The notes beneath the pieces were generated by a model, which saw only the letters and a list, made by a program, of their open reading frames with translations, did no database searches and had not been told where the DNA came from. From IMG/VR virus record IMGVR_UViG_3300027733_001717, positions 1-29,414 of that record: a stretch of DNA of 29,414 bases. One strand, given 5' to 3'. The number at the start of each line of letters is the position of its first letter. The first letter of the stretch is position 1. The DNA comes from a virus. The translations under genes and the position numbers were made by a program. Of this stretch, positions 4,860 through 20,210 are shown piece by piece.

Positions 4860-4860
4860 T

Positions 4861-5799: not shown

Positions 5800-8352
5800 A
5801 TGTATCGAAACGCATTTTACGATAATAAAGAAGGAACAATAAGACTTCGAACTTGGACAGAAGATGGTAAGCGTATTGATACAGACGTGCCGTTTAGTCC
5901 GTTTTTGTATACAGAATCAGCAACACCTGCTGACGCAACTAGTATTTTTCGTACTCACTTAAAGCGTAGAGTTTTTAAGAATAACATGGAGCGTAGTAAA
6001 TTTGTAAAAGAAACTTCTACGAGCCGTTTGTTCGGTAATATGTCTTGCGAGCAGCAGTTTTTACTTGAAGCGTTTAAAGAACAGGTAGGTGGTAAAGACT
6101 TTAGTAAATACCCATTAAAGATATATTCGTTCGATATTGAAACGTACTCCCCTAATGAGTTTCCAATACCTGAGTTAGCTAAAGACCCTGTAATACTAAT
6201 TACAATACATAATAATCTAACTGATGAAATTTTTAGCTGGGGTGTTGAAAAAGAATATAAACCTAAGAATGAAAAGGTAAAGTATTACTGCTGTCGTACA
6301 GAGTTTGAGATGTTTGAAAAGTTTATGAATTTCTGGAAGATAGACCCTCCAGATATTTTAGTAGGGTGGAACTCTGAACGATTTGATATTCCATATATTA
6401 TAAATAGAGCTCGTGGGTTGCTGGGTGATGAATTTATAAATCAACTTTCACCTGTTGGAAAATTATACTATAAACCTATTATGGATAATTTTGGTAGAAA
6501 TACAGGAAAATGGATTATATATGGTTTGAGTTGTCTTGACTATATGGAGATATATAGAGCGTATGCAAAAGGTGAACGTGAATCTTATTCTCTTAACTAT
6601 ATCGGTGAGTATGAATTAAAGGAAGGTAAATTAGCAATCAATGCTACAAATCTCTCTAACCTTGCTAATGAAGATTGGGAAAATTTTGTAGACTACAATA
6701 TTCAAGATGTACAGCTTCTTGTAAAACTAGAAGCAAAATTAAACTATCTTCGAATTGTACGCCTACTTGCGTATAAGGGTTGCACTAACTTTGAAGCAGC
6801 ATTAGGTAAGATTGCTATTGTAACAGGTGCAATGTATCTTCAGGCATACAAGCAGGGGTATGTTATACCCACCTTTAAAAATGAAGAGATTAGAGATACA
6901 CTCGTTGGTGGTTATGTTAGAGAGCCAGAACGCGGTCTCAAAAAAAGTATAGTAAGTTATGACGTTAACTCACTATACCCAAACACAATTATAACTTTAA
7001 ACATATCTGCAGAAACAAAGTTAGGTAAAATTGTGATTGGTGAATATGGTGTAGACGACAAACTGACAATTAGATTAGTAAACGGTAAGATACATGAGTT
7101 AACAGAAAAACAGTTTAAAGCTTTTATTAAAAAAGAAAAGATCTCAGTATCAAAAGCGGGGGTATTATATTCTCAAAAATATAAAGGTGTATGTCCGAAT
7201 CTAATTGACACTCTTTATACTGAACGTGTTGAAGCTCAAAAACAAAAGTTAACTCTTGAAAAGAAGAAAAAGTTAAATGAAGAAGAAAAAGCTACTGTAG
7301 AATATCTTGACACTCTACAGTATACGATTAAGATTCTACTCAATTCAATTTATGGTACTTTTGCAAACAAATATAGTGCGTTTATGGATATTGACAACGC
7401 GTCGTCAATCACAAAAACAGGTCAAGCGGTAGCGAAAGAAGGAGCTAAGATACTAGACCAATTTATTCAAAAAACATATGGTGTAGAGTCTTCTTGTGTT
7501 ATTGCAGGGGATACAGACAGTGTATACATTACTATACAGCCAATTTTAGATAAATTAGAACTGCCGCTAGCTGTAGATAATTTAATAACAAAAAAAGTAC
7601 ATACAATTGTTGATGAAATTACAGAGGTAGTAAATAGGGAAATTAATAGTTGGGCTGGTACAGAATTAAATTCAAGCGATTCACGTTTTGTTTTCAAGAG
7701 AGAGGTAATTGCAGATGTAGGTACATTTTTGCAGAAAAAAAGATATATAATTCGTATCTTAGATAAGGAAGGGGTAGCAGTTGAAGGTGGTAAATTTAAG
7801 TATGTAGGTGTTGAGATAGCCAGAAGCACTATGCCTAAAAAAGTTAAAGAGATTGTTAAAGAAGTTTTAGAAAACGCTCTCTTGACTAACGACATTAAAG
7901 GTACCAATGACATTTATCGTCATGCATACGACACATTTATCTCATTACCGCTTGCAGAAGTAGCTTTTAGAAGTAGTATTCAGAATTACAATAAATACGC
8001 TGAAGGTGCTACCTTAGATAAATTTAACAAAGGTACACCATGTCACGTGAAAGCTAGTATAGCGTTTAATCTACTTTTAGAGAAGTTTAAATTGTCTGGT
8101 AAGTATGAAAAAATACAGTCAGGTCAAAAAGTAAAGTACTTCTACACAGCCAACAACCCCTATAGACTTGACGCTATTGCTTTTGTAACAGATTACCCAA
8201 AAGAATTTGAAAAGGTCAAGATTGACTATGAGAAAATGTTTTTAAAAATTGCAGCTCCTCCGGTAGAGCGTTTATATGAAGCTTTAGATTGGAGACTACC
8301 TCAAATTGGTAAAGAAGTACAAACTGATTTATTTGATCTATTCTGTATATAG
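5800..8352 (+). CDS. 43: DNA polymerase, family B (gp43)
   Basis: Replicative polymerase with proofreading exonuclease, 850 residues (T4 gp43 is 898). Exo I FDIE has Asp112 and Glu114, the same numbers as in T4 gp43. Exo II is GWNSERFDIPY and Exo III is YNIQDVQLL. Polymerase motif A is DVNSLYP (from Asp388), motif B is KILLNSIYG (from Lys511) and motif C is GDTDS (Asp571, Asp573). KKRY follows downstream. The last residues TDLFDLF match the clamp-binding tail of T4-like polymerases, so it should bind the clamp encoded at 19476. The start lies 18 bases after fcl, behind TATAATATATGC and no SD. The stop codon lies inside a 14-base-pair inverted repeat. Confidence 0.97.
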   Translation: MYRNAFYDNKEGTIRLRTWTEDGKRIDTDVPFSPFLYTESATPADATSIFRTHLKRRVFKNNMERSKFVKETSTSRLFGNMSCEQQFLLEAFKEQVGGKDFSKYPLKIYSFDIETYSPNEFPIPELAKDPVILITIHNNLTDEIFSWGVEKEYKPKNEKVKYYCCRTEFEMFEKFMNFWKIDPPDILVGWNSERFDIPYIINRARGLLGDEFINQLSPVGKLYYKPIMDNFGRNTGKWIIYGLSCLDYMEIYRAYAKGERESYSLNYIGEYELKEGKLAINATNLSNLANEDWENFVDYNIQDVQLLVKLEAKLNYLRIVRLLAYKGCTNFEAALGKIAIVTGAMYLQAYKQGYVIPTFKNEEIRDTLVGGYVREPERGLKKSIVSYDVNSLYPNTIITLNISAETKLGKIVIGEYGVDDKLTIRLVNGKIHELTEKQFKAFIKKEKISVSKAGVLYSQKYKGVCPNLIDTLYTERVEAQKQKLTLEKKKKLNEEEKATVEYLDTLQYTIKILLNSIYGTFANKYSAFMDIDNASSITKTGQAVAKEGAKILDQFIQKTYGVESSCVIAGDTDSVYITIQPILDKLELPLAVDNLITKKVHTIVDEITEVVNREINSWAGTELNSSDSRFVFKREVIADVGTFLQKKRYIIRILDKEGVAVEGGKFKYVGVEIARSTMPKKVKEIVKEVLENALLTNDIKGTNDIYRHAYDTFISLPLAEVAFRSSIQNYNKYAEGATLDKFNKGTPCHVKASIAFNLLLEKFKLSGKYEKIQSGQKVKYFYTANNPYRLDAIAFVTDYPKEFEKVKIDYEKMFLKIAAPPVERLYEALDWRLPQIGKEVQTDLFDLFCI

Positions 8353-8377: not shown

Positions 8378-10054
8378 ATGCAAGACCTTTTACCGGAATA
8401 TAAAACTGAATCAGGTTACATTTACTTTACAATAACAAATGCAGGGTACATACAATTTGTTCTTAATTTCTGTAAAAGAAATAAAGAATTAAACACACTT
8501 AAAAAATTAATAATAGTTTGCACAGATAAAGAATCCTACAACCAACTAACCTACCTCGTTGATTGTATATGTGTATATTTTCCGTGCTTTATATCTAAAA
8601 CTCTTGAATCCTGGCATACAACAAACTATAAAGATATTGTTTTTAAGAAGCTAGATATCACAAAATGGGTTCTTCAATGGGCACAGTTAAACGATGTTAA
8701 ACGTGTCGTGTACCTTGATACTGATATGTGGTTGTATAAAGATTTTGTACCTGATCTTGAAAATTTTGTAGATAAAACATACGATATCGTAGATGTTATA
8801 ATGCAAGATGGTGAAAATTATGCTGATGAACCTTTTGAACCTACATACACAATAACACCGACAACAAGTACGCTTGAGGTTAAGAAATACTGCACACGTC
8901 TATGTACAGGTCTAATGATACTAAAACCTAATAATACTGTTACAGATATGCTTGACTATAAGAGCAATAGACTTGTAGATTGGTCTAAGTACGTAGGTAA
9001 TCAACCATTTTTAAATGACACTATTGATGCTTATCAAATTACGGCAATAGCTCTACCAAGACGTCTAGCAATAAATGGTAGCATATTCAACACTAGCGAT
9101 ATAGCAAGTAGTAAGGATAAACTTGAACTCGAACTAAATAAACTGAAGTGTAGTGATACATGGTTATTACATTACACATATTCTATTGGTGTTGCAAAAA
9201 TAGAAATGATGTCTTTATTAGGTCACTGGGCTCTGTCTACTGCTGAAACTCAAGCTTTTTTAGGTAAAAGTACAGGTCGTCCAGATCTATATGTAAGATG
9301 CCCTGACGGATTTGCAAATCAGCTGAGAATTCTACTTGCAGGAGTTTATCTAATGCAAACTAATAGTATAAACAGCTTTACAATTGAATGGGTGTTAAAC
9401 AATCATAATAATGTAAATTTTTTAGATTATTTTGAAAAACCACCAGGTGTTGTTATAAAAGATATTGATAGTAGTATTGACGATGAAAAAATTATTAAAA
9501 CTTGTAGTTTTGAATACTTAATTAACAAATACGCTAAACGAGGCACGCTATGGAATACAGCACTTAGTGTAGCTTTAAAGTATTTAATTATAAAAAGAGA
9601 TGTACAACTAGAAGTTGATAGTTTCGTTAAACAAAACAAGATCAATGAATCCCTTGGTGTTCACGCAAGACGTACATGCAAGACAGCTCTACTAGAAGGT
9701 GTACACGATAGAAGTTTACCTCTTACAAACACTGAAATTCTATCCATCTGTAGATCGTTTACAAAAGTGTATGTCGCAACAGATAATAAAGAAACACAAG
9801 ACTACTTCATCAAGGAATTAAACGAATCCGTTGTAGTATACAAGCCTATCATACATGGAGCGGAGCATTTTCCGTATGATGAATATAGTAGAGATGGTGT
9901 ACAGAGATACACAGACGGTAAGCACAATATAATGGACTTCTTATCACTAAAACAGTGTAGAACTTTTTTAGGTAGCAATGAAAGTGCTTATTCGTTACTA
10001 TTATTTCATTGGAGAAAAAATAGTAACGACTACCATGTCTTTGGTAAACTATAA
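8378..10054 (+). CDS. Two-domain glycosyltransferase: GT-A N-terminal half, fucosyltransferase-like C-terminal half
   Basis: 558 residues that appear to be a fusion. The N-terminal half (about 1-290) has the metal-binding DxD of a GT-A enzyme in YLDTDMW (Asp114, Asp116), as in GT8-like and nucleotide-diphospho-sugar transferases. The C-terminal half starts near CPDGFANQLR (about residue 308), a pattern seen at the N-terminus of alpha-1,2- and alpha-1,6-fucosyltransferases. It continues with LGVHARRTCK (His429, Arg431, Arg432), close to the HxRRxD GDP-fucose site, then DFLSLKQCRTFLGSNES, the family's C-terminal donor-site motif. The expected Asp after HxRRx is Cys434 here. GDP-fucose is made by gmd-fcl just upstream. 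The acceptor is unknown. Fold assignment is by eye and moderately secure for both halves. Confidence 0.7.
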   Translation: MQDLLPEYKTESGYIYFTITNAGYIQFVLNFCKRNKELNTLKKLIIVCTDKESYNQLTYLVDCICVYFPCFISKTLESWHTTNYKDIVFKKLDITKWVLQWAQLNDVKRVVYLDTDMWLYKDFVPDLENFVDKTYDIVDVIMQDGENYADEPFEPTYTITPTTSTLEVKKYCTRLCTGLMILKPNNTVTDMLDYKSNRLVDWSKYVGNQPFLNDTIDAYQITAIALPRRLAINGSIFNTSDIASSKDKLELELNKLKCSDTWLLHYTYSIGVAKIEMMSLLGHWALSTAETQAFLGKSTGRPDLYVRCPDGFANQLRILLAGVYLMQTNSINSFTIEWVLNNHNNVNFLDYFEKPPGVVIKDIDSSIDDEKIIKTCSFEYLINKYAKRGTLWNTALSVALKYLIIKRDVQLEVDSFVKQNKINESLGVHARRTCKTALLEGVHDRSLPLTNTEILSICRSFTKVYVATDNKETQDYFIKELNESVVVYKPIIHGAEHFPYDEYSRDGVQRYTDGKHNIMDFLSLKQCRTFLGSNESAYSLLLFHWRKNSNDYHVFGKL

Positions 10055-10258: not shown

Positions 10259-11113
10259 ATGCTAGTAAGTCACGAAACACCTGTAGACATGTTGGATGTA
10301 TCAAGATACTACAATGACTATGATTATTGTCTTGTTCATCTTTTACCGGAAAACGAAAAATACAAAGATTTTTATATTGAATCTGTTAAGTTAGGTAGAC
10401 ATGTTCTACTTGACAATTCAATTTTTGAATTAGGAGAAGCATATGATAACACAAAATTTGCGCAGTGGGTTGTAGATCTAACCCCGACTGAGTACATTGT
10501 ACCAGATGTTCTTGAAGAGACTCATCAAACAATTAGTTCTTTTGTAAGCTTTACAGGGACATATAAAGACTTACCAGGCAAAAAGATTGGCGTTGTACAA
10601 GGAAAGACTTATGAAGAAATAGTTGAGTGTTATAAATTTCTTGCAGACAAAGTAGATAAAATTGCTATAAGTTTTGACTATAGCTTTTATCTCAATAGTA
10701 AAGAAGAAAACAACAATTATAAAAAATTTATTGTATCAGAATTAAATATTAGAGAAGATCTTATTGATAATAAATGGTGCGATTACGCTATTGGTAGAAT
10801 TCAGCTTTTAAATAGATTGATAGGGGATGGTATTTTTGTTGAGAAACCTCATCACTTATTAGGGTGTAGTGTACCTTGGGAATTTAAAGCTATTAATAAT
10901 ACACTTGATAGCTTTTATTTAAAGTGTATTGAAACTATAGACACATCAAACCCTATAGTAGCAGGTATATTAGAGCATCCGTATAACATTAACTACGGTC
11001 TTTGTGAGAAGTGGTCTTATAAGTTAGTAGACTTTATTAATCATGTTCCGCATATCAAGCAAAAACAAATAATACAAAACAACGTATGGATGTTTAAGAA
11101 TTTCTGTCGTTAA
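10259..11113 (+). CDS. dpdA: DpdA-like guanine transglycosylase (TGT superfamily)
   Basis: 284 residues resembling the short phage relatives of tRNA-guanine transglycosylase, which exchange guanine in DNA for a 7-deazaguanine base. Visible TGT-like landmarks, in order: LLDNSIFELG (Asp52, where TGT has DSGGFQ), IVPDVLEE (Asp83), GVVQGKTYEE (Gln114-Gly115, the VQGG strand), HHLLGCSVPWEF (198-209, like the KPRYLMGVG strand) and IDTSNP (Asp228, possible nucleophile). The last assignment is inference. There is no C-terminal RNA-binding or zinc region, which points to a DNA substrate. It opens a tight block with a formyltransferase and QueF, the setting expected of DpdA. A plain tRNA-modifying TGT is less likely given its size. 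The start ATG has no SD. Confidence 0.72.
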   Translation: MLVSHETPVDMLDVSRYYNDYDYCLVHLLPENEKYKDFYIESVKLGRHVLLDNSIFELGEAYDNTKFAQWVVDLTPTEYIVPDVLEETHQTISSFVSFTGTYKDLPGKKIGVVQGKTYEEIVECYKFLADKVDKIAISFDYSFYLNSKEENNNYKKFIVSELNIREDLIDNKWCDYAIGRIQLLNRLIGDGIFVEKPHHLLGCSVPWEFKAINNTLDSFYLKCIETIDTSNPIVAGILEHPYNINYGLCEKWSYKLVDFINHVPHIKQKQIIQNNVWMFKNFCR

Positions 11114-11117
11114 TTTT

Positions 11118-11654
11118 ATGAAAAAATGGGTAGCTTTATTCTCACAAACAGGTACAGAGATCTTTAATCTAATTGAAGATCTTGCTATTAAACCTGATAG
11201 AATTGTTATTAATAATTCTGATCTAACAAATGTTAATAGTAAATTGTTAGATAAACATTTTGATGTATTGTGGGTTGTACCTAATAAGCCAAGCATTGAG
11301 GAGTATGATACCTTTCTTGATGAAAGTACAATCGTAACAATGCACGGTTGGTTGAGAATTGTGCCGCCTATAATTTGTGAGAGATATAAGATATATAATC
11401 TACACCCAGCTCCATTAACTCGTTACCCATTTCTCAAAGGTAAAGATCCGCAAAAAAGATGTATAGAACAAAATCTAGAGTACGGTGGTAACACGTTACA
11501 TGTGTGTTCGAGTGAGTTAGATTCAGGCAAAATTATATATGAGGATGAGGTTAGAATAAGAGGCTACAGTGTTAATGTAGCATATGATGCAATATATGCA
11601 TCAGCATTTAAACTGTGGAAGAAATTTCTAATAAATGAATTTAAAAGAAGTTAA
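11118..11654 (+). CDS. N10-formyl-THF-dependent formyltransferase, candidate dPreQ1 formyltransferase
   Basis: 178-residue protein with the formyltransferase core of PurN/Fmt: MHGWLRIVPP, then YNLHPAPL carrying the catalytic Asn94 and His96, and SELDSGKII with Asp135. This Asn-His-Asp set is the family active site. The N-terminal loop (SQTGTEI) only loosely matches the GSN phosphate loop of PurN, and the protein is shorter than PurN (about 210). It starts 4 bases after the dpdA-like gene. Family knowledge places a proposed dPreQ1 formyltransferase (DpdN) in phages carrying formylated preQ1. Position and type fit that here, though membership is inferred. Alternatives are GAR formyltransferase for purine synthesis or a sugar-amine formyltransferase. 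Confidence 0.75.
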   Translation: MKKWVALFSQTGTEIFNLIEDLAIKPDRIVINNSDLTNVNSKLLDKHFDVLWVVPNKPSIEEYDTFLDESTIVTMHGWLRIVPPIICERYKIYNLHPAPLTRYPFLKGKDPQKRCIEQNLEYGGNTLHVCSSELDSGKIIYEDEVRIRGYSVNVAYDAIYASAFKLWKKFLINEFKRS

Positions 11655-11865
11655 AAGTTCAATACAGTTAGAGTTGCTTTATAAAATCTTGTCATGTATT
11701 TACAATGATGAACTAGAAACTTTATTTGCGACAGAAAGTTATAGAGATATACATACCTTAGTCAAAAGTATGATTATTTACGACATGATATTTTACACTG
11801 CAGATAATAGATTGTTATTGACTTCTATAGGTAGAAACGTATTATTCAATTGCCCGTTATTTTAA
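11635..11865 (+). CDS. Hypothetical protein, small (76 residues)
   Basis: Begins inside the end of the formyltransferase gene (20-base overlap in another frame) and stops 4 bases before the kinase-like gene, so it is embedded in the same transcription unit. Leu- and Ile-rich helical N-terminal part (LELLYKILSCIY). The end TADNRLLLTSIGRNVL resembles the wing and last helix of a winged-helix domain, but this is only an impression. No signal peptide, no clear membrane segment and no known family. The tight overlap on both sides supports it as a real gene. Its role is unknown. Confidence 0.6.
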   Translation: MNLKEVKSSIQLELLYKILSCIYNDELETLFATESYRDIHTLVKSMIIYDMIFYTADNRLLLTSIGRNVLFNCPLF

Positions 11866-11869
11866 ATTT

Positions 11870-12400
11870 ATGAAAATTGCACTTTCAGGTCTACACAGTC
11901 AAGGCAAGACAACGTTACTCAATATCTTTGATAACAATCAAATTTTTAAAGATTATTATAAAGTGCCAAGCCCTACAAGAATACTTCAAAGTGAAGGTTT
12001 TGTAATAAATGAAAGCGGGGATGAAGTTACTCAAACACTCATAATGATGCAACATTATAAGAACGCTGTAAAGTGCGGTACAAAAGCTTTTTTTGATCGT
12101 TGTACTTTAGATGGCTTAGCGTATAGTCTCTTTTTTAAAGAGAAATTAAAAGATAAAAAAGTGTATAGTTTAATTGTAGATTTATTTAAATTAACAATTC
12201 AAAGCTATGATGTTATATTTTATATTGAACCAGAACTTGAACTACAGAATGACAATACACGATCTCTTGATCGTGTATTTTTTGACAATGTAAAACAAAA
12301 CTTTGAAGACGTTATTGCAGAGTACAAAATTGATGTTAAAAGAGTTAAAGGTACAATACAAGAACGTGTAGATTTTATACAGAAATTTATTAATATTTAA
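11870..12400 (+). CDS. P-loop kinase-like protein (AAA_28/NadR-type)
   Basis: 176 residues with an N-terminal Walker A GLHSQGKTT (residues 7-15) right after the first strand, and FFDRCTLDG (Asp76-Arg77, Asp81), the DRxxxD-like motif of nucleoside and nucleotide kinases and NadR-type proteins. A following strand VIFYIEPE and an Arg-containing lid region (SLDRVFFDN) complete a small kinase layout. It probably phosphorylates a nucleoside or nucleotide using ATP, but the substrate cannot be read from the sequence. It lies between the formyltransferase block and queF (2 bases before queF), so a role in handling modified-base intermediates or dNTP supply is conceivable. Confidence in the fold is good, and low for any substrate. 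Confidence 0.7.
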   Translation: MKIALSGLHSQGKTTLLNIFDNNQIFKDYYKVPSPTRILQSEGFVINESGDEVTQTLIMMQHYKNAVKCGTKAFFDRCTLDGLAYSLFFKEKLKDKKVYSLIVDLFKLTIQSYDVIFYIEPELELQNDNTRSLDRVFFDNVKQNFEDVIAEYKIDVKRVKGTIQERVDFIQKFINI

Positions 12401-12402
12401 AT

Positions 12403-13311
12403 ATGAGTGATATACTAGACAATTCAGCTATTTCAAAAGTTCTAGGTCAGAGAGTATCTGCACCTGCTCGTTATGATAAATCTATTTTAGTCCGAGAACC
12501 TCGACAAAGTAATAGAACGTATTTAGGTATACGTGATAGTGCTTTACCGTTTGTTGGTAAAGATCTTTGGAATAACTGGGAGATTAGTGCGCTTACAACT
12601 AACGGTATGCCAATAACAGGTATTGCACAAATAGTGTACGACTGTAACTCAAAGTATATTGTTGAATCAAAATCTGCTAAGTTGTATTTTAATTCTTTCA
12701 ATATGACTCAATTTGGAGATTCAAGTACGGAGGTAATTAAAAATATTGAAGAGTGTGCTTCAAGAGATTTATCTGAACTACTTGAATCACCCGTATCTGT
12801 AAAGATATTTTCAGCATCAGCTCATAATTCACGAGATACTGATTTGAAGGAATATTCAAAGTATATAACACTTGAAGACCAAGAAGGTGTAAATGAAATA
12901 AAATTTAACACATATAGTGAGAATTCAGGTTTGCTTGTTATTAACAAGAGTAATACAACTCAAGAACAATACTTTAGAAGTACACTACTACGTTCAAATT
13001 GCCGTGTAACTAATCAACCCGATCACGGAGATGTATATATCTACCTGAAATCAAAAAATAAAATTACACCAAAATCCCTTATTCAATATATAGTGAGTTT
13101 TAGAAATGAGTGTCATTTTCACGAAGAGATCTGTGAGGCTATTTATAAACGTATTCTTGATCTATGTGAACCTGAAGAGTTGAGAGTGTCATGCTATTAT
13201 GTACGTCGTGGAAGTTTAGACATCAACCCTGTACGAGCTACTCATGAACATTTACTTGAAGATTATCTATTAAATACTAATATACGTTTCTGTAAGACAC
13301 CTAGACAATAA
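12403..13311 (+). CDS. queF: QueF, NADPH-dependent 7-cyano-7-deazaguanine (preQ0) reductase
   Basis: Reduces the nitrile of preQ0 to the amine of preQ1. At 302 residues it is the long, two-module (E. coli-type) form, which is about 282. The N-terminal module has ESKSAKLYFNSFN (from Glu88), the QueF substrate and NADPH motif. The C-terminal module has LRSNCRVTNQPDHG with catalytic Cys200 and Asp207 (E. coli Cys190, Asp197, same spacing). It continues with SFRNECHFHEE giving His240 and Glu241, and ends RRGSLDINPVR as in E. coli. All catalytic residues are present. It lies in the block with the DpdA-like enzyme, so its product is likely the base inserted into phage DNA rather than only tRNA queuosine. 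Confidence 0.95.
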   Translation: MSDILDNSAISKVLGQRVSAPARYDKSILVREPRQSNRTYLGIRDSALPFVGKDLWNNWEISALTTNGMPITGIAQIVYDCNSKYIVESKSAKLYFNSFNMTQFGDSSTEVIKNIEECASRDLSELLESPVSVKIFSASAHNSRDTDLKEYSKYITLEDQEGVNEIKFNTYSENSGLLVINKSNTTQEQYFRSTLLRSNCRVTNQPDHGDVYIYLKSKNKITPKSLIQYIVSFRNECHFHEEICEAIYKRILDLCEPEELRVSCYYVRRGSLDINPVRATHEHLLEDYLLNTNIRFCKTPRQ

Positions 13312-13316
13312 AAATT

Positions 13317-13697
13317 ATGAAGAAAAACGAAAAAGACAATAAAGAAACCTTGACAGTGTTTCTTGATACAATTGGTCGAACTATTCTTGGCGCTCTTGAA
13401 GCGGAAGATAGTAACTCAATTACTATCAAGAACCCTGCAGTCGTAAACATTACTCCCAACCCTACAAACGGTCAGATATCTCTACAGTTACTACCTCTAT
13501 TTTTTAGAGAGTTTCTAGCAGATAGTACCGAACCTACCAGGTGGGTGTATCAGAAGAGTTTAATAACTCGCTGTCAAGATATTACTCTTGACTTCAAGTT
13601 TCTAGCACAATACGGCCAAATTTTTGCACCAATTCAAGCTCAACAAGCAGAGCCTCCCAAGGGAGATGGTAATGTGATCAAATTATTTGATGAATAA
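13317..13697 (+). CDS. Hypothetical phage protein (126 residues)
   Basis: Follows queF by 5 bases and is the last gene before a clear terminator. Lys- and Glu-rich N-terminus (MKKNEKDNKE), then a compact middle with KNPAVVNITPNPTNGQISLQ and LLPLFFREFL. The Pro-rich tail ends NVIKLFDE. No catalytic motif, signal peptide or membrane helix is visible. I do not recognise a named family. The middle resembles conserved unknown proteins found near uvsX in marine T4-like phages, which is from memory and uncertain. The start ATG follows AATAAAAATT with no SD. Confidence 0.7.
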   Translation: MKKNEKDNKETLTVFLDTIGRTILGALEAEDSNSITIKNPAVVNITPNPTNGQISLQLLPLFFREFLADSTEPTRWVYQKSLITRCQDITLDFKFLAQYGQIFAPIQAQQAEPPKGDGNVIKLFDE

Positions 13698-13724
13698 TTA
13701 AAACACAACACTAACAAACTCATT

Positions 13725-13758
13725 AAAACCTACACAATACAAAGTGTAGGTTTTTTTT
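13725..13758 (+). terminator. Rho-independent terminator
   Basis: AAAACCTACAC (13725-13735) pairs perfectly with GTGTAGGTTTT (13744-13754) around an 8-base loop, and the T run continues to 13758 (eight T in all). It lies 28 bases after the stop codon of the 126-residue gene and before uvsX, closing the dpdA-queF transcription unit. Confidence 0.9.
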
Positions 13759-13791
13759 GATTTAACGAGAATGTAATATATCATACTACAT

Positions 13792-14889
13792 ATGGCTAAA
13801 GACTCTCTTAATCATCTTAAAGATATTTTCAAATCTGTCGACGATCTTAACCCTGACGCTGCTACTCTCGATGAAAGTACTCTTTCGTCTGCTGACGAAT
13901 GGATTGATACTGGGTGTTATGCATTAAACGCTATCATTTCAGGTTCTTTATATAAAGGTATACCTGTAGGGCGTATTGCAGGGTTTGCAGGACCATCGCA
14001 AGCTGGCAAATCACTGATAATGAATCGCATCATGGCTAATGCTCAGAAGATAGGCTATGTACCTGTAATTTGGGATTCGGAAGTTGCAGTAGATAAGCGC
14101 AGCGCTGAAGGTGCAGGTATGGACACAAAACGGGTTAAGTATTACCCAGTAGAAACTATTGAAGATTGTAGAAATCAAATGTGTAAATTCTTTGATAATA
14201 TTATTGCAGCAAATAATCCAGAGTTAAAATTTATCGTTGCAATTGATTCTCTCGGTAACTTAGCAAGTGCGAAGGAAATAAGAGATGCATCTGCAGGTAA
14301 GGATGCAAGTGATGTTGGTCAACGTGCAAAAGCAATCAAATCAATGATGCGTACTTTAACGTATAAAGCTGCAAAAGCAAAAGTACCAGTGTTGTTTAGT
14401 AATCATATATATGATAGTATGGAGATGTTTCCTTCACTCGTTAAGACACAAAGTGGTGGGAAAGGACCTATATATCTTGCATCAGTATTAGTGCAGTTGA
14501 GTACTCGTAACGAGAAGTCTACTGAAAACCCAAATGAAGCGTCAGTAGCTATTTCAAATAATGTTTCAGGTGTAACACTTTCAGCAATGACTGTTAAAAA
14601 TCGTTTTGTACCAAACTTTTTAAAGACTGAATTATATTTAAATTTCAAAACCGGTCTTGATAAATACTCAGGGCTATTTGAAATAGCAACAGCGTATGGA
14701 GTTTTAGTGAAAGCAGGTAATAGATATACATTCGGTGAAGAGAATTTAGGTTATCGTAAAGATATTGAAAAAAATATTGAATGTTGGGAGAAGATAATGC
14801 CAAAACTTGAAGAAGTTCTGCAAGAGCAATTATGTTATAGCAATGATAAGACAGCTGAGTTGCAAAAAGAAGTTGACGATATAGCATAA
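13792..14889 (+). CDS. uvsX: UvsX, RecA-like recombinase
   Basis: Strand-exchange protein that starts recombination-dependent replication and repair; 365 residues (T4 UvsX is about 390). Walker A is GPSQAGKS (67-74). Walker B is FIVAIDSLGN, with Asp152. The RecA-like catalytic region and later VLFSNHIYDS and TQSGGKGPIYLAS segments correspond to L1/L2-like DNA-binding parts. It is the first gene after a terminator, so it needs its own promoter in 13759-13791, but no convincing -35/-10 pair is seen there, only A/T-rich sequence (TAATATATCATAC). It ends 5 bases before gene 41. Confidence 0.95.
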   Translation: MAKDSLNHLKDIFKSVDDLNPDAATLDESTLSSADEWIDTGCYALNAIISGSLYKGIPVGRIAGFAGPSQAGKSLIMNRIMANAQKIGYVPVIWDSEVAVDKRSAEGAGMDTKRVKYYPVETIEDCRNQMCKFFDNIIAANNPELKFIVAIDSLGNLASAKEIRDASAGKDASDVGQRAKAIKSMMRTLTYKAAKAKVPVLFSNHIYDSMEMFPSLVKTQSGGKGPIYLASVLVQLSTRNEKSTENPNEASVAISNNVSGVTLSAMTVKNRFVPNFLKTELYLNFKTGLDKYSGLFEIATAYGVLVKAGNRYTFGEENLGYRKDIEKNIECWEKIMPKLEEVLQEQLCYSNDKTAELQKEVDDIA

Positions 14890-14894
14890 TATCT

Positions 14895-16244
14895 ATGCAG
14901 AATACAAACATAGCAACAACGCTTGACCTTGACTTCTACGAAGGTGTAATTTTGCTAAATAGTCTCTTAAGTACAGACTATCTAGCAACAATAATAGATT
15001 TTGTTAAACCTGATTATTTTAATGATAAAGACATTAGGGTAGTGTTTAGTACTATATCTAATTTCTTTCAAGAAAGAGGTGTAATACCAACACATACAGA
15101 AATAAAATCAAGACTCCTAACAGAAGAAGATAAAAAAGCATTTAATAATACAGCTACAAAGTTAAAACAACTCGATAAAACTTTTGAAAAGCAAGAACTT
15201 CTAATAAACACCGAGCGCTTTCTTAAAGAAAGATGTCTACAGAAAGCTATTATTGAAACTGCAGAAAAATTTTCAAAAGGTAAGATAGAACCTCAAGAAA
15301 TTTTACAAGAGTTTGAAAAAGCTAGTGCTATCTCATTAAGTGAGAGTATGGGGCATTGGTATTTTGAAGATATTGATAAACATATCAAAGATCTCGTCAC
15401 AACCTACAACCCACTACCTTTAGGTTGGAGATTTTTAGACGAACGTTTAGAGGGCGGACTTTATCCAAAAACGTTAACTTGTTTTTTAGGTCAAGTTAAC
15501 GTCGGTAAGAGTATATTCTTGGGAAATATAGCTACAAATATAGTTATGAGAAATCATAACGTGTTGTTGATTTCTCTTGAGATGTCTGAGTTTATGTATG
15601 CTAAGCGAATAAGCTCTCAGATTACACAGATACCACATAATGAATTAAAAGTATACACTGATGAGATTAAAGAGTCTGTAGAACATCTAAAGCGACAAAT
15701 AGAAAGTAAATTGGTAATTAAAGAGTACCCACCAAAATCAATTACATGTAGACATATTGACGCATACATGACTAAACTAACACAACGCGGGTTTAAACCT
15801 GCTGTTTTAGTTATTGATTATATTAATTTATTAAAACCGGTTTCAAAGAACTTAAACTCATATGAGAGTGTTAAAGAAGTTGCTGAACAGTTAAGAGCTC
15901 TATCGTTTAAATACAATATACCGATTGTAACAGCTTCTCAGCTTAAGAGAGATGCGTTCAATACATCCAACCCAGGTATGGAGGGGGTATCAGAAAGTAT
16001 TGGTCTTGCAGCAACTTGTGATGTTATGTGCTCTATATGGCAGGAAGAAGAAGATAAAGAATTAGGTCTAGTTCATTTAGGTATGATCAAGAACCGATTT
16101 GGGCCAAATTATGGTACATGCGCTTTTAAAATTAAATATGACACACTCACTCTAACAGAGACAAGTGTTGATTATTTTGCAGCTGATAATGTAGAAAACG
16201 CTATTGAAGACGCATCAACTACATTAGATAAATTGAGTGTTTAA
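14895..16244 (+). CDS. 41: Replicative DNA helicase gp41 (DnaB-like)
   Basis: Hexameric 5'-3' helicase that works with primase and is loaded by gp59; 449 residues (T4 gp41 about 475). The N-terminal domain (1-150) is helical. The RecA-like C-terminal domain has Walker A GQVNVGKS (199-206), VLLISLEMSEFMYAKR (the DnaB H1a-H2 region), VLVIDYINLL (Walker B) and IVTASQLKRDAF (H3). SVDYF near the end is also DnaB-like. It starts 5 bases after uvsX and is followed by a 71-base gap with a hairpin. Confident. Confidence 0.95.
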   Translation: MQNTNIATTLDLDFYEGVILLNSLLSTDYLATIIDFVKPDYFNDKDIRVVFSTISNFFQERGVIPTHTEIKSRLLTEEDKKAFNNTATKLKQLDKTFEKQELLINTERFLKERCLQKAIIETAEKFSKGKIEPQEILQEFEKASAISLSESMGHWYFEDIDKHIKDLVTTYNPLPLGWRFLDERLEGGLYPKTLTCFLGQVNVGKSIFLGNIATNIVMRNHNVLLISLEMSEFMYAKRISSQITQIPHNELKVYTDEIKESVEHLKRQIESKLVIKEYPPKSITCRHIDAYMTKLTQRGFKPAVLVIDYINLLKPVSKNLNSYESVKEVAEQLRALSFKYNIPIVTASQLKRDAFNTSNPGMEGVSESIGLAATCDVMCSIWQEEEDKELGLVHLGMIKNRFGPNYGTCAFKIKYDTLTLTETSVDYFAADNVENAIEDASTTLDKLSV

Positions 16245-16292
16245 GATATTATAAAATAACACACTATACTTTAAGTTGAACTAAAAGTACAA

Positions 16293-16317
16293 ATCGCCTA
16301 ATTAACAATTAGGCGAT
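16293..16317 (+). promoter_or_regulatory. Hairpin running into the start codon of the 105-residue gene
   Basis: ATCGCCTAATT (16293-16303), loop AAC and AATTAGGCGAT (16307-16317) make a perfect 11-base-pair stem. The A and T of the start codon at 16316 are the last two paired bases. No T run follows, so a plain intrinsic terminator is unlikely. Restricting ribosome access to the start, or marking an RNA processing site, is the likelier role (inference). Confidence 0.6.
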
Positions 16318-16633
16318 GCTTAATAGTAAAAATATTACAAATATTATACATAATAGTAACCCTGTTGAAACAACTGCTGGCAAGGAGTTTATAACAGGTT
16401 TACTAAAAGTTGGAGCGTTTCTGTCAATAGTTAGCGGCAAGAAGATAAATTCTTCTACTTTATTTACTATGATCCTTGAAAATAGCGACATTCGCTATAT
16501 ATTTGTGTCATTAACAGGTGCTTCAGACGAAAGAGAAGCACTATTGGGTATGCTATATATGTACCCTGCTCTTTTAAAGAGTAAAAATGTTAAAAAGACG
16601 TTTCAAAGATCCCTTAAAAATGACAGAATTTGA
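16316..16633 (+). CDS. Hypothetical protein in the position of T4 gene 33 (105 residues)
   Basis: Lies between gene 41 and gene 59, directly upstream of 59 and 32. In T4 the order is 33-59-32, so by position it could be the late transcription co-activator gp33. The sequence does not help: it lacks a recognisable C-terminal clamp-binding tail of the LDFLL type and ends KTFQRSLKNDRI. Visible features are a hydrophobic segment (FITGLLKVGAFLSIV), too short and mixed to call a membrane anchor, and a helical middle (REALLGMLYMYPALL). The start codon is inside a hairpin. The 3' end overlaps gene 59 in another frame. Real gene likely; identity open. Confidence 0.6.
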   Translation: MLNSKNITNIIHNSNPVETTAGKEFITGLLKVGAFLSIVSGKKINSSTLFTMILENSDIRYIFVSLTGASDEREALLGMLYMYPALLKSKNVKKTFQRSLKNDRI

Positions 16634-17297
16634 AAAGCAAATATACAACAGTTATCTTGCAATAACCCGACAGATAAAAAACAAACCGTTCAAAAAGAGA
16701 GCAAACTTTGAAAATTTTGAACAAACACCAGAATATCTTTTAGTAAAAAGACTCTGTATTCTCTTTAGCAAACATAAAGAGATTGATATAAAAACTTACT
16801 TTGAAGCCCCATATAAAATATACCAAGATGCTTCATTTTTCGATTTAGGCTATTACTCAAGCCCTCGAGCTGTAAAAGCATACACTTTATATCGAAAAAT
16901 ATTAAACTCTAATAATCCTGATGATTGTGTTGATGAAGTTAAAAAATCATTAGAGTTTTTAACTAAATTCTGTATTGATTCAAATATACAGCTTTTAGAT
17001 TATACAAAACATTCTAGTGGTAGTATACCTACATGGGTAGAACATCTTAAAAGAAATCAAATACACCCTTACACCTTAATGGAGTTTACAGGTATATATA
17101 AAACACTCAATACACTTACCCCTGAAGAACAAGAAATACTGCTTGGGTCTTTTGCTTCAGACTACTTTAAGTTTAGAGACAAGTATAATAACAGCAACAC
17201 CCTCAAGCCGTTACTGCAAAAAGCTTTCTTTAAACTTCAGAATTTAATTTTTAAACGCTTGCAGATAAAGAAGGAGAATATACAATATAAAGAATAA
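16620..17297 (+). CDS. 59: Helicase loader gp59
   Basis: Loads gp41 helicase onto forked DNA covered with gp32. The chosen start at 16620 gives 225 residues, close to T4 gp59 (217). Another ATG at 16587 would add 11 residues but lengthen the overlap with the upstream gene from 14 to 47 bases. Mostly helical and basic, with segments that read like gp59: an N-terminal part YNSYLAITRQIKNK, then KRLCILFSKHKEIDIKTYFEA, and a C-terminal helical half ending in a basic helix LQNLIFKRLQIKK. It has the same place as in T4, immediately upstream of gene 32 (3-base gap). The call rests on synteny plus overall resemblance. Confidence 0.8.
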   Translation: MTEFEKQIYNSYLAITRQIKNKPFKKRANFENFEQTPEYLLVKRLCILFSKHKEIDIKTYFEAPYKIYQDASFFDLGYYSSPRAVKAYTLYRKILNSNNPDDCVDEVKKSLEFLTKFCIDSNIQLLDYTKHSSGSIPTWVEHLKRNQIHPYTLMEFTGIYKTLNTLTPEEQEILLGSFASDYFKFRDKYNNSNTLKPLLQKAFFKLQNLIFKRLQIKKENIQYKE

Positions 17298-17300
17298 ATT

Positions 17301-18215
17301 ATGAAATTTACTAACTCAATGTTTAACGATATTAAGACAGCAATGACTTCTAAAGGTGAATCAGCTTTTAAAGATGTCTTAAAATTTGAAGCAGGCAAGA
17401 CGTATAACCTACGCCTTGTACCAAACATCAACCAGCCAAAGAAAAGCATCTTTCATTATTATCATCATAGCTGGAATAGCTTGGCTAGTACTAAGTTTCT
17501 ATCTACTGTATGCCCTACTACGTTTGGTGAATCATGCCCTATCTGCAGTCACGCTATCAAGACTTTTCGTAACGGTTCAAACGAAGAAAAAGAAAAGAAC
17601 AAGCTTATTTCTAGAAAAGAAAATTGGCTTGCTAATGTGTATGTAGTAGCAGACCCTTCTAACGCTGAGAATGTAGGTAAGGTCAAGATGCTTAGGTATG
17701 GTCGCGAATTGGCAAAGATTATTAACGAAGCAATTGACGGTGAAGATTCTGAAGATTTTGGAGCCAAGATCTTTGATGTAGTGAATGGTTGTACCTTGCG
17801 CGTAAAGTGTGAAGCTCGTTCTGGAGCTCCGCAGAAGAAGCAGTTTGTTACGTACGGTTCGAGTAAGTTCGTAGCAGCATCAACGCTTGATGATATTGAT
17901 GCTGGTCGTCTAGCTGAAATTCACGCAAGTATCTTTGATCTTGAAGCTGTCAACAAGCTTGCTACCTCCCCTGAATTGCAGAGGATGTTAGACCAACATT
18001 ATTTCTGCGTTGAAGATGCAGTGTCTTCAGAAGATGAAATTGTTGATGATGAAATACCTAGCAAGAAACCTGAACTAACTAAAAAGAAAGAAGTATCTAA
18101 ACCAAAAACTCAGATTGATGATATCTTCGAAGGAGTAAAAGAAGCTAAGAGTAAGAGTGAAGACGAAGACGATTTTTATGACGATGAATTGAAAGATATT
18201 CTCAGCAAAATGTAA
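17301..18215 (+). CDS. 32: Single-stranded DNA-binding protein gp32
   Basis: Coats ssDNA during replication and recombination; 304 residues (T4 gp32 is 301). N-terminal cooperativity domain (1-20), then the OB-fold core with a zinc site: His55/His56 (HHSWNS) and CPTTFGESCPIC giving Cys71, Cys79 and Cys82. This matches the His-Cys3 zinc site of T4 gp32. The C-terminus is strongly acidic (EDEDDFYDDELKDILSKM), as in T4, where it contacts partner proteins. It follows gp59 by 3 bases, with AATAAATT directly before the ATG and no SD. Confidence 0.95.
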   Translation: MKFTNSMFNDIKTAMTSKGESAFKDVLKFEAGKTYNLRLVPNINQPKKSIFHYYHHSWNSLASTKFLSTVCPTTFGESCPICSHAIKTFRNGSNEEKEKNKLISRKENWLANVYVVADPSNAENVGKVKMLRYGRELAKIINEAIDGEDSEDFGAKIFDVVNGCTLRVKCEARSGAPQKKQFVTYGSSKFVAASTLDDIDAGRLAEIHASIFDLEAVNKLATSPELQRMLDQHYFCVEDAVSSEDEIVDDEIPSKKPELTKKKEVSKPKTQIDDIFEGVKEAKSKSEDEDDFYDDELKDILSKM

Positions 18216-18258
18216 CCTTTAACTTTATTAATTTTAGTAACTAACTTATATAAATTAT

Positions 18259-19092
18259 ATGCCACGTAAAAAAACAAACGACGACATACCAGACATTCAA
18301 AATACAATTGAGGGATTTCCAAAGAAATATATACCAAAAGTAGGTACTCGAGACGCCACGGTGCCTATCAAGATCATTCGTAAGGATGGAACTGTAAATG
18401 AAGGTAGTGGTAAGGTTAGTATGTATACTGATCTTACACCTGAAGTAAAGGGTACGAATATGAGTCGGTATCGTATTCTTATTGAAGAGATTCTTCAGAA
18501 AGATGGTTATTATATTCATGAAGTAATTCCGAGTCTCCTTACTGAATGTAAGGAGCGTCTTAAGGCTGATAATGCTTATGTGAAGATTAACTTTGACTAC
18601 TTTCTTAAGAAGAAAGCGCCAGTATCAGGTGTAGAGTCTCATATGGATTATAGAGGCTGTATGGAAGGTAAATTGATCAATGGAGAGCAGAAGCTATATC
18701 TAAAGGTTAGTGTGCTGTATGCATCGTTGTGCCCTTGTAGTAAAGAGATTAGTGATTATGGAGCTCATAATCAGCGAAGTGTTGCAGATGTAGTAGTAGA
18801 ACTTGATGAGTCAAAAGGTGTTATGTGGATTGAGGAGTTGATTGATATTGTAGAGCGTTGCAGTTCTGCACCTATCATTAACGCATTGAAGAGAATCGAT
18901 GAAGCATATCAAACAGAACTAATGTATGAAAACCCTCGCTTTGTTGAAGATATGGTTCGCTTGATTGGTCAAGAGCTTGATATTGAGCTTGATAACCGTA
19001 TCAAAGATTATAGTGTTGTAGTAAATCACTATGAAAGTATTCATAGTTCAACTGCATGTGCAATTATTAACGCTGGTAGAACATTAACGTAA
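18259..19092 (+). CDS. folE2: FolE2, GTP cyclohydrolase of type IB
   Basis: Opens GTP to 7,8-dihydroneopterin triphosphate, the shared first step to folate and to 7-deazaguanines (preQ0). 277 residues, typical for FolE2 (about 260-300). Motifs: DIQN near the N-terminus, VPIKIIRKDG, LTPEVKGTNMSR, SLCPCSKEISDYGAHNQRS (Cys158, Cys160, Gly168-His170) and YENPRFVEDMVR, then a late HYESIHSSTA histidine region. This is the COG1469 type rather than FolE (type IA), which most phage 7-deazaguanine clusters carry. It sits between gp32 and an unknown gene, away from queF but in the same direction. It could also support the folate cofactor of the formyltransferase at 11118. Confidence 0.93.
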   Translation: MPRKKTNDDIPDIQNTIEGFPKKYIPKVGTRDATVPIKIIRKDGTVNEGSGKVSMYTDLTPEVKGTNMSRYRILIEEILQKDGYYIHEVIPSLLTECKERLKADNAYVKINFDYFLKKKAPVSGVESHMDYRGCMEGKLINGEQKLYLKVSVLYASLCPCSKEISDYGAHNQRSVADVVVELDESKGVMWIEELIDIVERCSSAPIINALKRIDEAYQTELMYENPRFVEDMVRLIGQELDIELDNRIKDYSVVVNHYESIHSSTACAIINAGRTLT

Positions 19093-19096
19093 TATT

Positions 19097-19474
19097 ATGG
19101 ATGAATTTGCAGCAGCTTTAATGGCAAAATTAGTATCTGGCAACCTCCAAATGGTTGATGAATCTACTGTACAGAGATCTACATCCGGTCCAGCAAACAA
19201 ACTAGACCCTCATTCATTTCTACGTCAGCAGCAGCAGCAACAGAAACAGCAGGAGCAGATTAATGCAAATGTGTATCAGCCTGATGCTCATACTGAGGTT
19301 AACGTACATACAGTTCATGCAATACAAGAAGAACCTCAATCTAATATTGCAAGATCAAAGAAGTCAAACAATACGCTAAATGTAGATAGTGCTGATTCTC
19401 AAAAATTAATTAAAATTTTTACAAGTATTGATAAATCTTTAAAAGCAATTGTAACTCATCTAACAAAACAGTAA
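19097..19474 (+). CDS. Hypothetical protein with a glutamine run (125 residues)
   Basis: Starts 4 bases after folE2 and ends one base before the clamp gene. Short helical N-terminus (MDEFAAALMAKLVSG), then a Gln-rich stretch around residues 36-52 (RQQQQQQKQQEQ), a low-complexity middle, and a helical C-terminus (LIKIFTSIDKSLKAIVTHL) that could form a coiled coil. No known family. The repeat is coded by mixed CAG/CAA codons. The C-terminal helix may mediate assembly or binding to a partner, but no function is claimed. Confidence 0.7.
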   Translation: MDEFAAALMAKLVSGNLQMVDESTVQRSTSGPANKLDPHSFLRQQQQQQKQQEQINANVYQPDAHTEVNVHTVHAIQEEPQSNIARSKKSNNTLNVDSADSQKLIKIFTSIDKSLKAIVTHLTKQ

Positions 19475-19475
19475 A

Positions 19476-20210
19476 TTGAAAACAACATTAAAATTACATA
19501 AAGAAAGTTTCGTAAGTCACTTTCTCCTACCTTTAGGCAAGCTAACTGATAATGTAATTTTAAACCTTACATCAGATAAAGTTGTTGCAACGTGCAGTAC
19601 ACCAGACGCTGGGGTGGTAGTATGTGCGGAGTATATATCTGAGTTTGATGTTGATAAAAGTTTAACCCTCAATCTACCCGACGTCAAGAAGTTCTCAAAG
19701 CTTCTTGACGGTTTAGCAGATGAATACATTACATTAACATTTAATAGCAATCATTTAGCGTATAAAAGCTCTAGTATTAAGTTTAATTACTTTTTATTAG
19801 AAGAAGGTTATGTACAGCGTTGCCCTGTAAGTTCAGCAAAGATACAAGGTCTTACACATGATAGCTGCTTTACATTAACCTCAGATAAATTAAACGAAAT
19901 ACTAAGGGGCCATAGTATTGCTTCTGATGCTAGCAAGGTGTATTTCTTTCTTCAAGATGGGGAAGTGTATGCTGAGCTAAATGATAAAGAACGTCAGAAT
20001 ATCAACAATATTATGTATAGTGTTACAGATGAGATTGAAGGAGAAGAATTTAATACACTTGCATTAAATCTAGAGTCCCTTAGAATGCTAACTGGGTTAA
20101 GAAATAGTAAATTTGAAGTAAAAATTAATAACAAATTAAATGTATTTCTTTTTGATATCATCGAAGAGAAAATAAATATACGATTTGCTATCTCAGCTCT
20201 TGTTAAATAA
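19476..20210 (+). CDS. 45: Sliding clamp gp45
   Basis: Trimeric processivity clamp that tethers the polymerase and, in T4, also activates late transcription. 244 residues (T4 gp45 is 228). It starts with TTG, two bases after the preceding stop codon; no ATG exists at the N-terminus and the sequence MKTTLKLHKESF fits a clamp start. Clamp-like pieces include SDKVVATCSTPDAGVVVCAEY, LNLPDVKKFSKLL and the C-terminal KINNKLNVFLFDI. The polymerase at 5800 ends in TDLFDLF, a matching clamp-binding peptide. A TTG start may reduce translation, which is inference. Confidence 0.9.
   Translation: MKTTLKLHKESFVSHFLLPLGKLTDNVILNLTSDKVVATCSTPDAGVVVCAEYISEFDVDKSLTLNLPDVKKFSKLLDGLADEYITLTFNSNHLAYKSSSIKFNYFLLEEGYVQRCPVSSAKIQGLTHDSCFTLTSDKLNEILRGHSIASDASKVYFFLQDGEVYAELNDKERQNINNIMYSVTDEIEGEEFNTLALNLESLRMLTGLRNSKFEVKINNKLNVFLFDIIEEKINIRFAISALVK

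Follow-up and report, generated by a model that had tools for sequence, protein, structure and literature searches.

Gene content of the locus

We analyzed a 29,414-nucleotide stretch of viral DNA, hereafter the window (IMG/VR record IMGVR_UViG_3300027733_001717). Positions 10259–13311 hold a cassette of four genes in the order transglycosylase, formyltransferase (starting at 11118), small kinase (11870), and QueF (12403), and a fifth gene, for FolE2, starts at 18259. The initial annotation had reported a DpdA-like transglycosylase, QueF, and FolE2 encoded in the same direction; all three genes are intact plus-strand open reading frames (ORFs), starting at 10259, 12403, and 18259, and their identities are borne out by fold, profile, and identity matches. 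It had also described them as spread over the replication region, which is true of FolE2, set apart directly past gp32, but not of the other four of the five genes, which form one tight cassette. Formyltransferase and P-loop kinase genes at 11118–11654 and 11870–12400 are cassette members absent from that annotation.

The surrounding plus-strand genes encode a T4-like family-B DNA polymerase (gp43; 5800..8352; phrog_262, 647 bits), a UvsX-like recombinase (13792..14889; phrog_97, 219 bits), a DnaB-like, gp41-like replicative helicase (14895..16244; phrog_19, 267 bits), a gp32-like single-stranded DNA-binding protein (17301..18215; Pfam gp32, 63 bits), and a DNA polymerase processivity factor, or clamp (19476..20210; phrog_223, 38 bits). 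The polymerase shares 31% identity with the best-ranked phage record. The cassette is also present in phages whose replication genes differ considerably, among them the isolated phage immuto, and we regard the locus as a modular guanine-modification cassette in a deep, uncultured T4-like lineage. A small ORF of 76 amino acids (11635..11865, plus strand) overlaps the end of the formyltransferase gene; it had no Pfam or PHROG match and, among 95 loci scanned, was matched only in L003, L005, and L022, which represent two contigs near-identical to the window.

Transglycosylase, QueF, and FolE2

The first cassette gene (10259..11113, plus strand; 284 amino acids) was assigned as a DpdA-type DNA guanine transglycosylase from a profile match (phrog_19058, 175 bits), homology, and fold. 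Its product shares 42% identity with the immuto protein annotated as a DNA guanine transglycosylase (99% of its length aligned) and 42% with gp056 of Campylobacter phage CP220 (92% aligned). No Pfam or NCBIfam match was found, a PDB sequence search with a 41-row transglycosylase profile retrieved no tRNA guanine transglycosylase (TGT), and hhalign of the family against CAjan DpdA gave a probability of 1.9 (E = 0.026, 53 columns); since these sequence-only tests yielded nothing significant, a fold model was needed. With the AlphaFold2 model (pLDDT 95.8), three TGT/DpdA structures were the only Foldseek matches at E < 0.001, including TGT 1q65 (E = 2.2e-6) and the DNA preQ0 insertase DpdA 7ui4 (E = 1.9e-4), and VIA gave matches spanning the whole model to archaeosine TGT 1iq8 (Z = 16.6) and 7ui4 (Z = 15.9). 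Agreement with the TGT fold had been chosen beforehand as the test that could overturn the assignment, and the fold agrees. Residues D52, D83, G115, H199, G202, and D228-T-S were identical in all 132 of 132 aligned sequences; carrying roles over from TGT, we take the Asp of DNS to be the general acid and the Asp of DTS the nucleophile. The link to DpdA rests on the predicted fold and the immuto annotation, and the product is probably a DpdA-type DNA transglycosylase, with DpdA3 as its probable subfamily.

QueF (12403..13311, plus strand), a predicted bimodular NADPH-dependent 7-cyano-7-deazaguanine (preQ0) reductase that has its NADPH motif, matched two Pfam domains, QueF_N with 112 bits and QueF with 72 bits, and scored 243 bits against the NCBIfam equivalog TIGR03138, under its 293-bit cut-off. 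As claimed initially, all catalytic residues are retained: in an alignment to the solved QueF 3bp1, the catalytic Cys (in SNC), Asp (in QPD), and His-Glu (in FHE) coincide, as does the ESKS motif. The features of type II QueF (N- and C-terminal domains, ESKS, Cys, and Asp) are present. Phage QueF and the amidotransferase QueF-L are described in passages of PMC6884629 as hard to separate by similarity.

The GTP cyclohydrolase FolE2 gene (18259..19092, plus strand; Pfam GCHY-1, 230 bits; NCBIfam FolE2, 225 bits, above the cut-off of 215) probably encodes the first step of the 7-deazaguanine pathway. It sits between the gp32 and clamp genes, in a slot held by FolE in sister phages, where a clamp homologue lies downstream of FolE as well as of FolE2, and the small ORF directly 3' of FolE2 (19097..19474, plus strand) is also matched past FolE. 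FolE2 and FolE occupied this slot in a ratio of 32:6, which is not a frequency, FolE2 having been a query. Only 3 of 50,697 phage records were matched by FolE2, none of them annotated; FolE2 may represent an alternative first enzyme for the phage 7-deazaguanine pathway.

The steps between FolE2 and QueF had been expected to be encoded elsewhere in the genome or supplied by the host, and the first of these expectations is supported. An overlapping contig of 52 kb, 99.9% identical, carries some 6 kb upstream a QueE-like gene that scores below the cut-offs of QueE models; QueD and QueC were not found on this contig, and a 218-kb relative encodes QueC, QueD, and a QueE-like gene. The pathway is therefore probably complete in the phage genome. 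One further contig (L029) unites QueE, QueD, FolE, transglycosylase, formyltransferase, kinase, QueF, and QueC in one cluster.

Formyltransferase and survey of transglycosylase loci

The second gene (11118..11654, plus strand) encodes a 10-formyl-tetrahydrofolate (THF)-type formyltransferase of 178 amino acids (Pfam Formyl_trans_N, 38 bits), 42% identical to immuto gp204, which is encoded at the corresponding place. N94, H96, and D135 were invariant in 28 of 28 sequences, and Asn-His-Asp is the catalytic triad of the formyltransferase superfamily. Judging from genomic context, the product is probably a dPreQ1 (or preQ1) N-formyltransferase, an enzyme type named DpdN.

We gathered loci by transglycosylase, formyltransferase, kinase, and FolE2 searches, two of which contributed their best 80 matches only; because this sampling was non-random, proportions describe the sample. 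The 180 hits gave 135 distinct loci, 100 of which had at least 3.5 kb downstream and were evaluable. In 57 of these 100 loci, kinase, formyltransferase, and QueF all lay no farther than 4 kb from the transglycosylase; the others had kinase and QueF without formyltransferase (22), kinase alone (10), kinase and formyltransferase (1), or none of the three (10). Wherever a formyltransferase lay within 4 kb, QueF nearly always accompanied it (57 of 58 loci), as would be predicted for an enzyme that acts on preQ1. On a tree of these loci (3 of 100 left out for length, 97 rows cut to 76), the presence of both genes was strongly clustered, which leaves few independent events behind their co-occurrence; in an independent-pairs test of low power, three pairs fell on starred branches, and the sign test gave p = 0.25–1. 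Two fragments count against a formylated preQ1 product: L028 carries a formyltransferase without QueF on 49.7 kb, and in L245 a formyltransferase was found with neither kinase nor QueF in a 9.6-kb stretch.

An alternative that we consider unlikely is that QueF and the transglycosylase suffice, the final base being plain preQ1, and that the formyltransferase serves the phage as a PurN (GAR transformylase), boosting purine synthesis. PurN supplies both the nearest solved structures (best, 64 bits) and the nearest NCBIfam model, and the 22 loci with kinase and QueF only indicate that the cassette can do without a formyltransferase. However, the product scored 36 bits against the PurN equivalog, whose cut-off is 150, and the GSN of two PurN chains, in the loop that holds the GAR phosphate, is replaced by GSE in the family consensus. 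Moreover, the cassette contains no other purine-synthesis gene, and across divergent phages the formyltransferase stands constantly beside transglycosylase, kinase, and QueF. It is very improbable that the gene encodes a sugar N-formyltransferase linked to the nucleotide-sugar epimerase and glycosyltransferase genes of the window (block 2590–5781) and unconnected with DNA: sugar formyltransferases share the superfamily, but their best score (PseJ, 41 bits) falls below that of PurN, and L023, L026, L029, and L030 combine formyltransferase and transglycosylase with the window's sugar genes unmatched in the stretch examined. Just as implausible is a gene set making preQ1 for host tRNA queuosine, with the TGT-like protein acting on tRNA, since, although tRNA TGTs (Z = 15.9–16.6) match the fold as closely as DpdA 7ui4 does (Z = 15.9), the closest named relatives are the annotated DNA transglycosylase of immuto and a Campylobacter phage protein, and we know of no place for a preQ1-modifying formyltransferase in queuosine synthesis. 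Some Campylobacter phages are, in passages of PMC6884629, reported to carry dADG in their DNA, which also speaks against action on tRNA.

Comparison with known systems

The cassette is probably a variant of an established phage strategy against restriction enzymes. Flavobacterium phage vB_FspM_immuto (NC_055915) has the same order of DpdA, formyltransferase, kinase, and QueF, with identities to the window of 42%, 42%, 29%, and 42.5%, respectively, but it encodes FolE and has a family-A DNA polymerase after the cassette, whereas the window has FolE2 and the T4-like family-B polymerase, UvsX, and gp32. In Campylobacter phage CP220 (Firehammervirus), the transglycosylase (42% identical) is followed, as next annotated gene, by the same kinase (32.8%); unlike the window, CP220 has no formyltransferase between the two and no QueF match in its whole record. 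We take its DNA base to be dADG and CP220 to belong to the Campylobacter phage group reported as highly modified. Passages of PMC6884629 report Campylobacter phages with preQ0-pathway genes as highly dADG-modified, no DpdA having been found at that time. The Vibrio phage KVP40/nt-1 type of Tevenvirinae is likewise T4-like with 7-deazaguanine genes, and the KVP40 QueF is 44% identical to that of the window; this type has, according to passages of PMC8056088 and PMC6884629, DpdA2, FolE, QueD, QueE, QueC, and QueF or QueF-L. The window differs in its FolE2 and in its DpdA-type enzyme, probably of another subfamily, and phages of the KVP40/nt-1 type were absent from the 18 phage records matched by its transglycosylase.

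Proposed route and final base

With the gene identities, folds, retained catalytic residues, conservation of the cassette, and QueE-like gene established here, we infer the enzyme substrates, final base, protective effect, and kinase role as follows. GTP would be opened by FolE2 and converted by QueD, QueE, and QueC to preQ0, which QueF would reduce to preQ1. The DpdA-type transglycosylase would then put preQ1 in the place of guanine in the phage DNA; either ahead of this insertion or following it, the formyltransferase may transfer a formyl group from 10-formyl-tetrahydrofolate onto the amine of preQ1. The resulting DNA base would be 7-(formylamino)methyl-7-deazaguanine, and the phage DNA would resist host restriction enzymes.

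We consider it likely that the locus is a T4-like phage DNA hypermodification cassette making formylated preQ1 in DNA. The initial annotation had proposed preQ1-type bases, and a pathway reaching preQ1 is supported; given the formyltransferase between transglycosylase and QueF in the window and the three-gene set in 57 of 100 loci, formyl-preQ1 is the likelier end base. Work by Cui et al. from 2023 is said to describe DpdN as a dPreQ1 formyltransferase, with formyl-dPreQ1 in phage DNA. Cassette content may predict the base: DpdA with kinase would suggest ADG or preQ0, addition of QueF preQ1, and addition of the formyltransferase formyl-preQ1.

The kinase

The third gene (11870..12400, plus strand) encodes a small P-loop nucleoside/nucleotide kinase of 176 amino acids (Pfam AAA_28, 47 bits; phrog_2107 'thymidylate kinase', 66 bits), for which PADLOC gave a weak P-loop match only. 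Its structure model (pLDDT 91) is closest to NadR ribosylnicotinamide kinase (Z up to 18.3), compared with Z of about 15–16 for deoxynucleoside and dTMP kinases. Of the 100 distinct loci sampled, 90 have a kinase no more than 4 kb from the transglycosylase, including loci without QueF and formyltransferase; for this transglycosylase subfamily, a kinase neighbour is usual. The idea that it is always adjacent was dropped in view of the 10 loci without it at this range. In two of these (L086 and L095), formyltransferase, kinase, and QueF lie about 7 kb off, and the other eight form one clade on the tree. Two members of this clade were read gene by gene (L198 and L202), and the gene next to the transglycosylase is ThyX-like (Pfam Thy1, run on L198 only); five contigs of the clade searched in full had kinase matches at other places. 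A role in formylation was also abandoned, as 10 of 100 loci, CP220 included, have the kinase without formyltransferase and QueF.

The kinase family matched 63 phage records, 45 of them Streptomyces phages with weaker matches. None of these 45 was matched by the transglycosylase search, and Karimac has no annotated que or dpdA gene in the 20 kb around its kinase-family gene; the family is thus not confined to the 7-deazaguanine system. A literature search, with Cui et al. 2023 outside its reach, found no described role for a kinase next to the transglycosylase, and passages of PMC8056088 tie a thymidylate-kinase homologue of RB69 to arabinosyl-hmdC, not DpdA. Provisionally, FolE2 in the FolE slot and the association of kinase with transglycosylase look new.

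One guess, which we hold weakly, is that the kinase helps return the guanine released at each exchange to the nucleotide pool. Support is mixed: phosphoribosyltransferase-domain matches were found in 11 of 18 records but not in CP220, the overlapping contig, or five more, and an IMPDH/GMP-reductase-type gene was present in 4 of the 18. It is rather improbable that transglycosylase and kinase act as a pair on free deoxynucleotides and not on finished DNA, and we give equally little credence to the corresponding scheme, in which the base of dGMP or deoxyguanosine would be exchanged, the product phosphorylated towards the triphosphate, and this inserted by the phage polymerase. If true, such pairing would account for the presence of a nucleoside/nucleotide kinase next to this subfamily irrespective of the final base, as well as for the complete guanine replacement that DpdA3 is said to allow in the 2023 work of Cui et al. 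However, DpdA-type enzymes are thought to act post-replication, and Crippen et al., in 2019, reportedly sought dADG phosphates in infected Campylobacter and did not find them. The kinase offers a concrete, testable lead on how most or all guanines could be replaced by a transglycosylase. The overlapping contig, L231, L233, and L234 each have a further member of the kinase family adjacent to QueE; we set it aside as a pathway gene, L241 having it in a similar block without QueE.

Results and Discussion

We confirmed that the DpdA-like transglycosylase, QueF and FolE2 reported by the initial annotation lie at 10259-11113, 12403-13311 and 18259-19092, respectively, all on the plus strand. The Pfam search gave no match for the transglycosylase. 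Its structure model (pLDDT 95.8, built from 41 sequences) matched two TGTs and the DNA preQ0 insertase 7ui4, and nothing else, in Foldseek at E < 0.001 (among the matches listed, VIA Z 15.9–16.6 over 220–229 residues), which bears out the expected TGT fold. Residues D52, D83, G115, H199, G202 and D228-T-S were invariant in all 132 aligned sequences, and position 114 was Q in 124 of them and H in the other eight. Profile similarity to the phage protein CAjan DpdA was not significant; therefore, the transglycosylase represents a distant subfamily, which we believe to be DpdA3. Matches covering at least 80% of its length occurred in 18 of 50,697 phage records; Campylobacter phages accounted for 14 of these and Flavobacterium phage immuto for four, the latter annotated as DNA guanine transglycosylase. 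Among bacterial and archaeal genomes, four relatives were confirmed: one locus contained all four cassette genes (L247), two contained the kinase and QueF with no formyltransferase match found (L244, L246), and one contained the formyltransferase with neither kinase nor QueF found (L245).

The gene order transglycosylase, formyltransferase (11118-11654), kinase (11870-12400) and QueF was common to the window and immuto, where the kinase is a thymidylate kinase, except that a small ORF follows the transglycosylase in immuto, whereas that of the window follows the formyltransferase. The kinase was seen in 91 of the 95 viral loci of the first scan, some of which share one contig, and in the other four the sequence stops no more than 403 bases from the transglycosylase. 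Profile searches were then evaluated for 100 distinct loci whose downstream sequence reached at least 3.5 kb. The complete set of kinase, formyltransferase and QueF lay within 4 kb of the transglycosylase in 57, kinase and QueF only in 22, kinase alone in 10, kinase and formyltransferase without QueF in one, and none of the three in 10; these proportions describe a sample gathered with cassette genes and FolE2 as queries. Two loci (L030, L031) kept all members in altered order, and L029 carried a single cluster, QueE-QueD-FolE-DpdA-formyltransferase-kinase-QueF-QueC. In L086 and L095, about 7 kb separated the transglycosylase from a formyltransferase-kinase-QueF block on the same strand.

QueF retained its catalytic and NADPH motifs, and preQ1 is therefore expected. 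In PMC6884629, phage QueF and QueF-L are described as hard to distinguish, and dPreQ1 is reported in Dp-1 and HVTV-1, each with a QueF-L-type protein. The formyltransferase is a PurN-like family member with an intact Asn-His-Asp triad, scoring 36 against the PurN cut-off of 150, and has GSE in place of the GSN of two PurN chains compared. The preQ1 amine as its substrate fits the presence of QueF in 57 of the 58 loci with formyltransferase, a co-occurrence reflecting few independent evolutionary events. The initial proposal of a preQ1-type base pointed the right way but stopped one step early, given the formyltransferase in the cassette, and formyl-preQ1 is the likeliest base in the phage DNA. 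The modification system is of an already-known kind.

A gp32-adjacent cyclohydrolase gene was found in 38 distinct loci, as FolE2 in 32 and FolE in six, counts that represent no frequency. Of the three genes that follow FolE2 in the window (19097, the clamp at 19476, and 20185), one or more were matched downstream in 5 of the 6 FolE loci and 30 of the 32 FolE2 loci, and the remaining three end within 467 bases. So FolE and FolE2 alternate as the GTP cyclohydrolase in a single slot beside gp32, in support of FolE2 as the entry enzyme of the 7-deazaguanine pathway. FolE2 matched three of the 50,697 phage records, all unannotated. In one T4-like clade with FolE2 and the transglycosylase, none of the other three cassette genes lay within 4 kb (L198:1948-3611, L202:1506-2977, L203, L205, L207, L209, L223 and L224); read gene by gene, L198 and L202 had a ThyX-like gene directly after the transglycosylase.

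The remaining pathway genes, which the initial annotation expected elsewhere in the genome unless host preQ0 is used, were recovered in part. A 52,239-base contig overlaps window positions 1-23563 at 99.9% and extends 28.7 kb further upstream. On this contig, some 6 kb before the window starts, lies a QueE-like radical SAM gene matched by several QueE models, all below cut-off, but QueC and QueD were not found on the contig. A relative of 218 kb (G006) has the cassette, QueC, QueD and a QueE-like gene; its FolE2 and that of the window share 82% identity. The overlapping contig also encodes ribonucleotide reductase subunits, judged by eye from translations, and a GMP-reductase/IMP-dehydrogenase-type gene scoring below cut-off (L015:14855-15787, plus strand), of a kind that also turned up in 3 of the 17 further records examined. 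As read from the sequences, a long insertion separates the second cysteine from the third in the QueE-like proteins of this contig (L016:1718-2533, minus strand) and of L231 (3325-4152); we assign these cysteines to the usual radical-SAM cluster region.

The window (29,414 bases, a virus record) contained no detectable tRNA genes, and its replication genes were T4-like but remote: a family-B polymerase (31% identity to the best-ranked phage record), an SbcC-like nuclease subunit, UvsX, a DnaB-like helicase, gp32, a clamp and the large terminase. Just upstream of the polymerase (2590-5781) lie a glycosyltransferase and two nucleotide-sugar epimerase genes, by eye GDP-mannose dehydratase/GDP-fucose synthase-like, and a 558-aa ORF without a PHROG match (8378-10054) separates the polymerase from the cassette.

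The usual kinase partner and the exchange of FolE and FolE2 are the parts deserving specialist attention. The kinase fold resembles NadR ribosylnicotinamide kinase, deoxynucleoside kinases and dTMP kinase, and fold alone does not fix the substrate. Another member of this kinase family adjoins the QueE-like gene of the overlapping contig (L016:1081-1695, minus strand), and similar copies occur beside QueE in L231, L233 and L234 and without QueE in L241. In Campylobacter phage CP220, an HD-domain and P-loop kinase protein is encoded directly upstream of the transglycosylase (L032:10868-11899).
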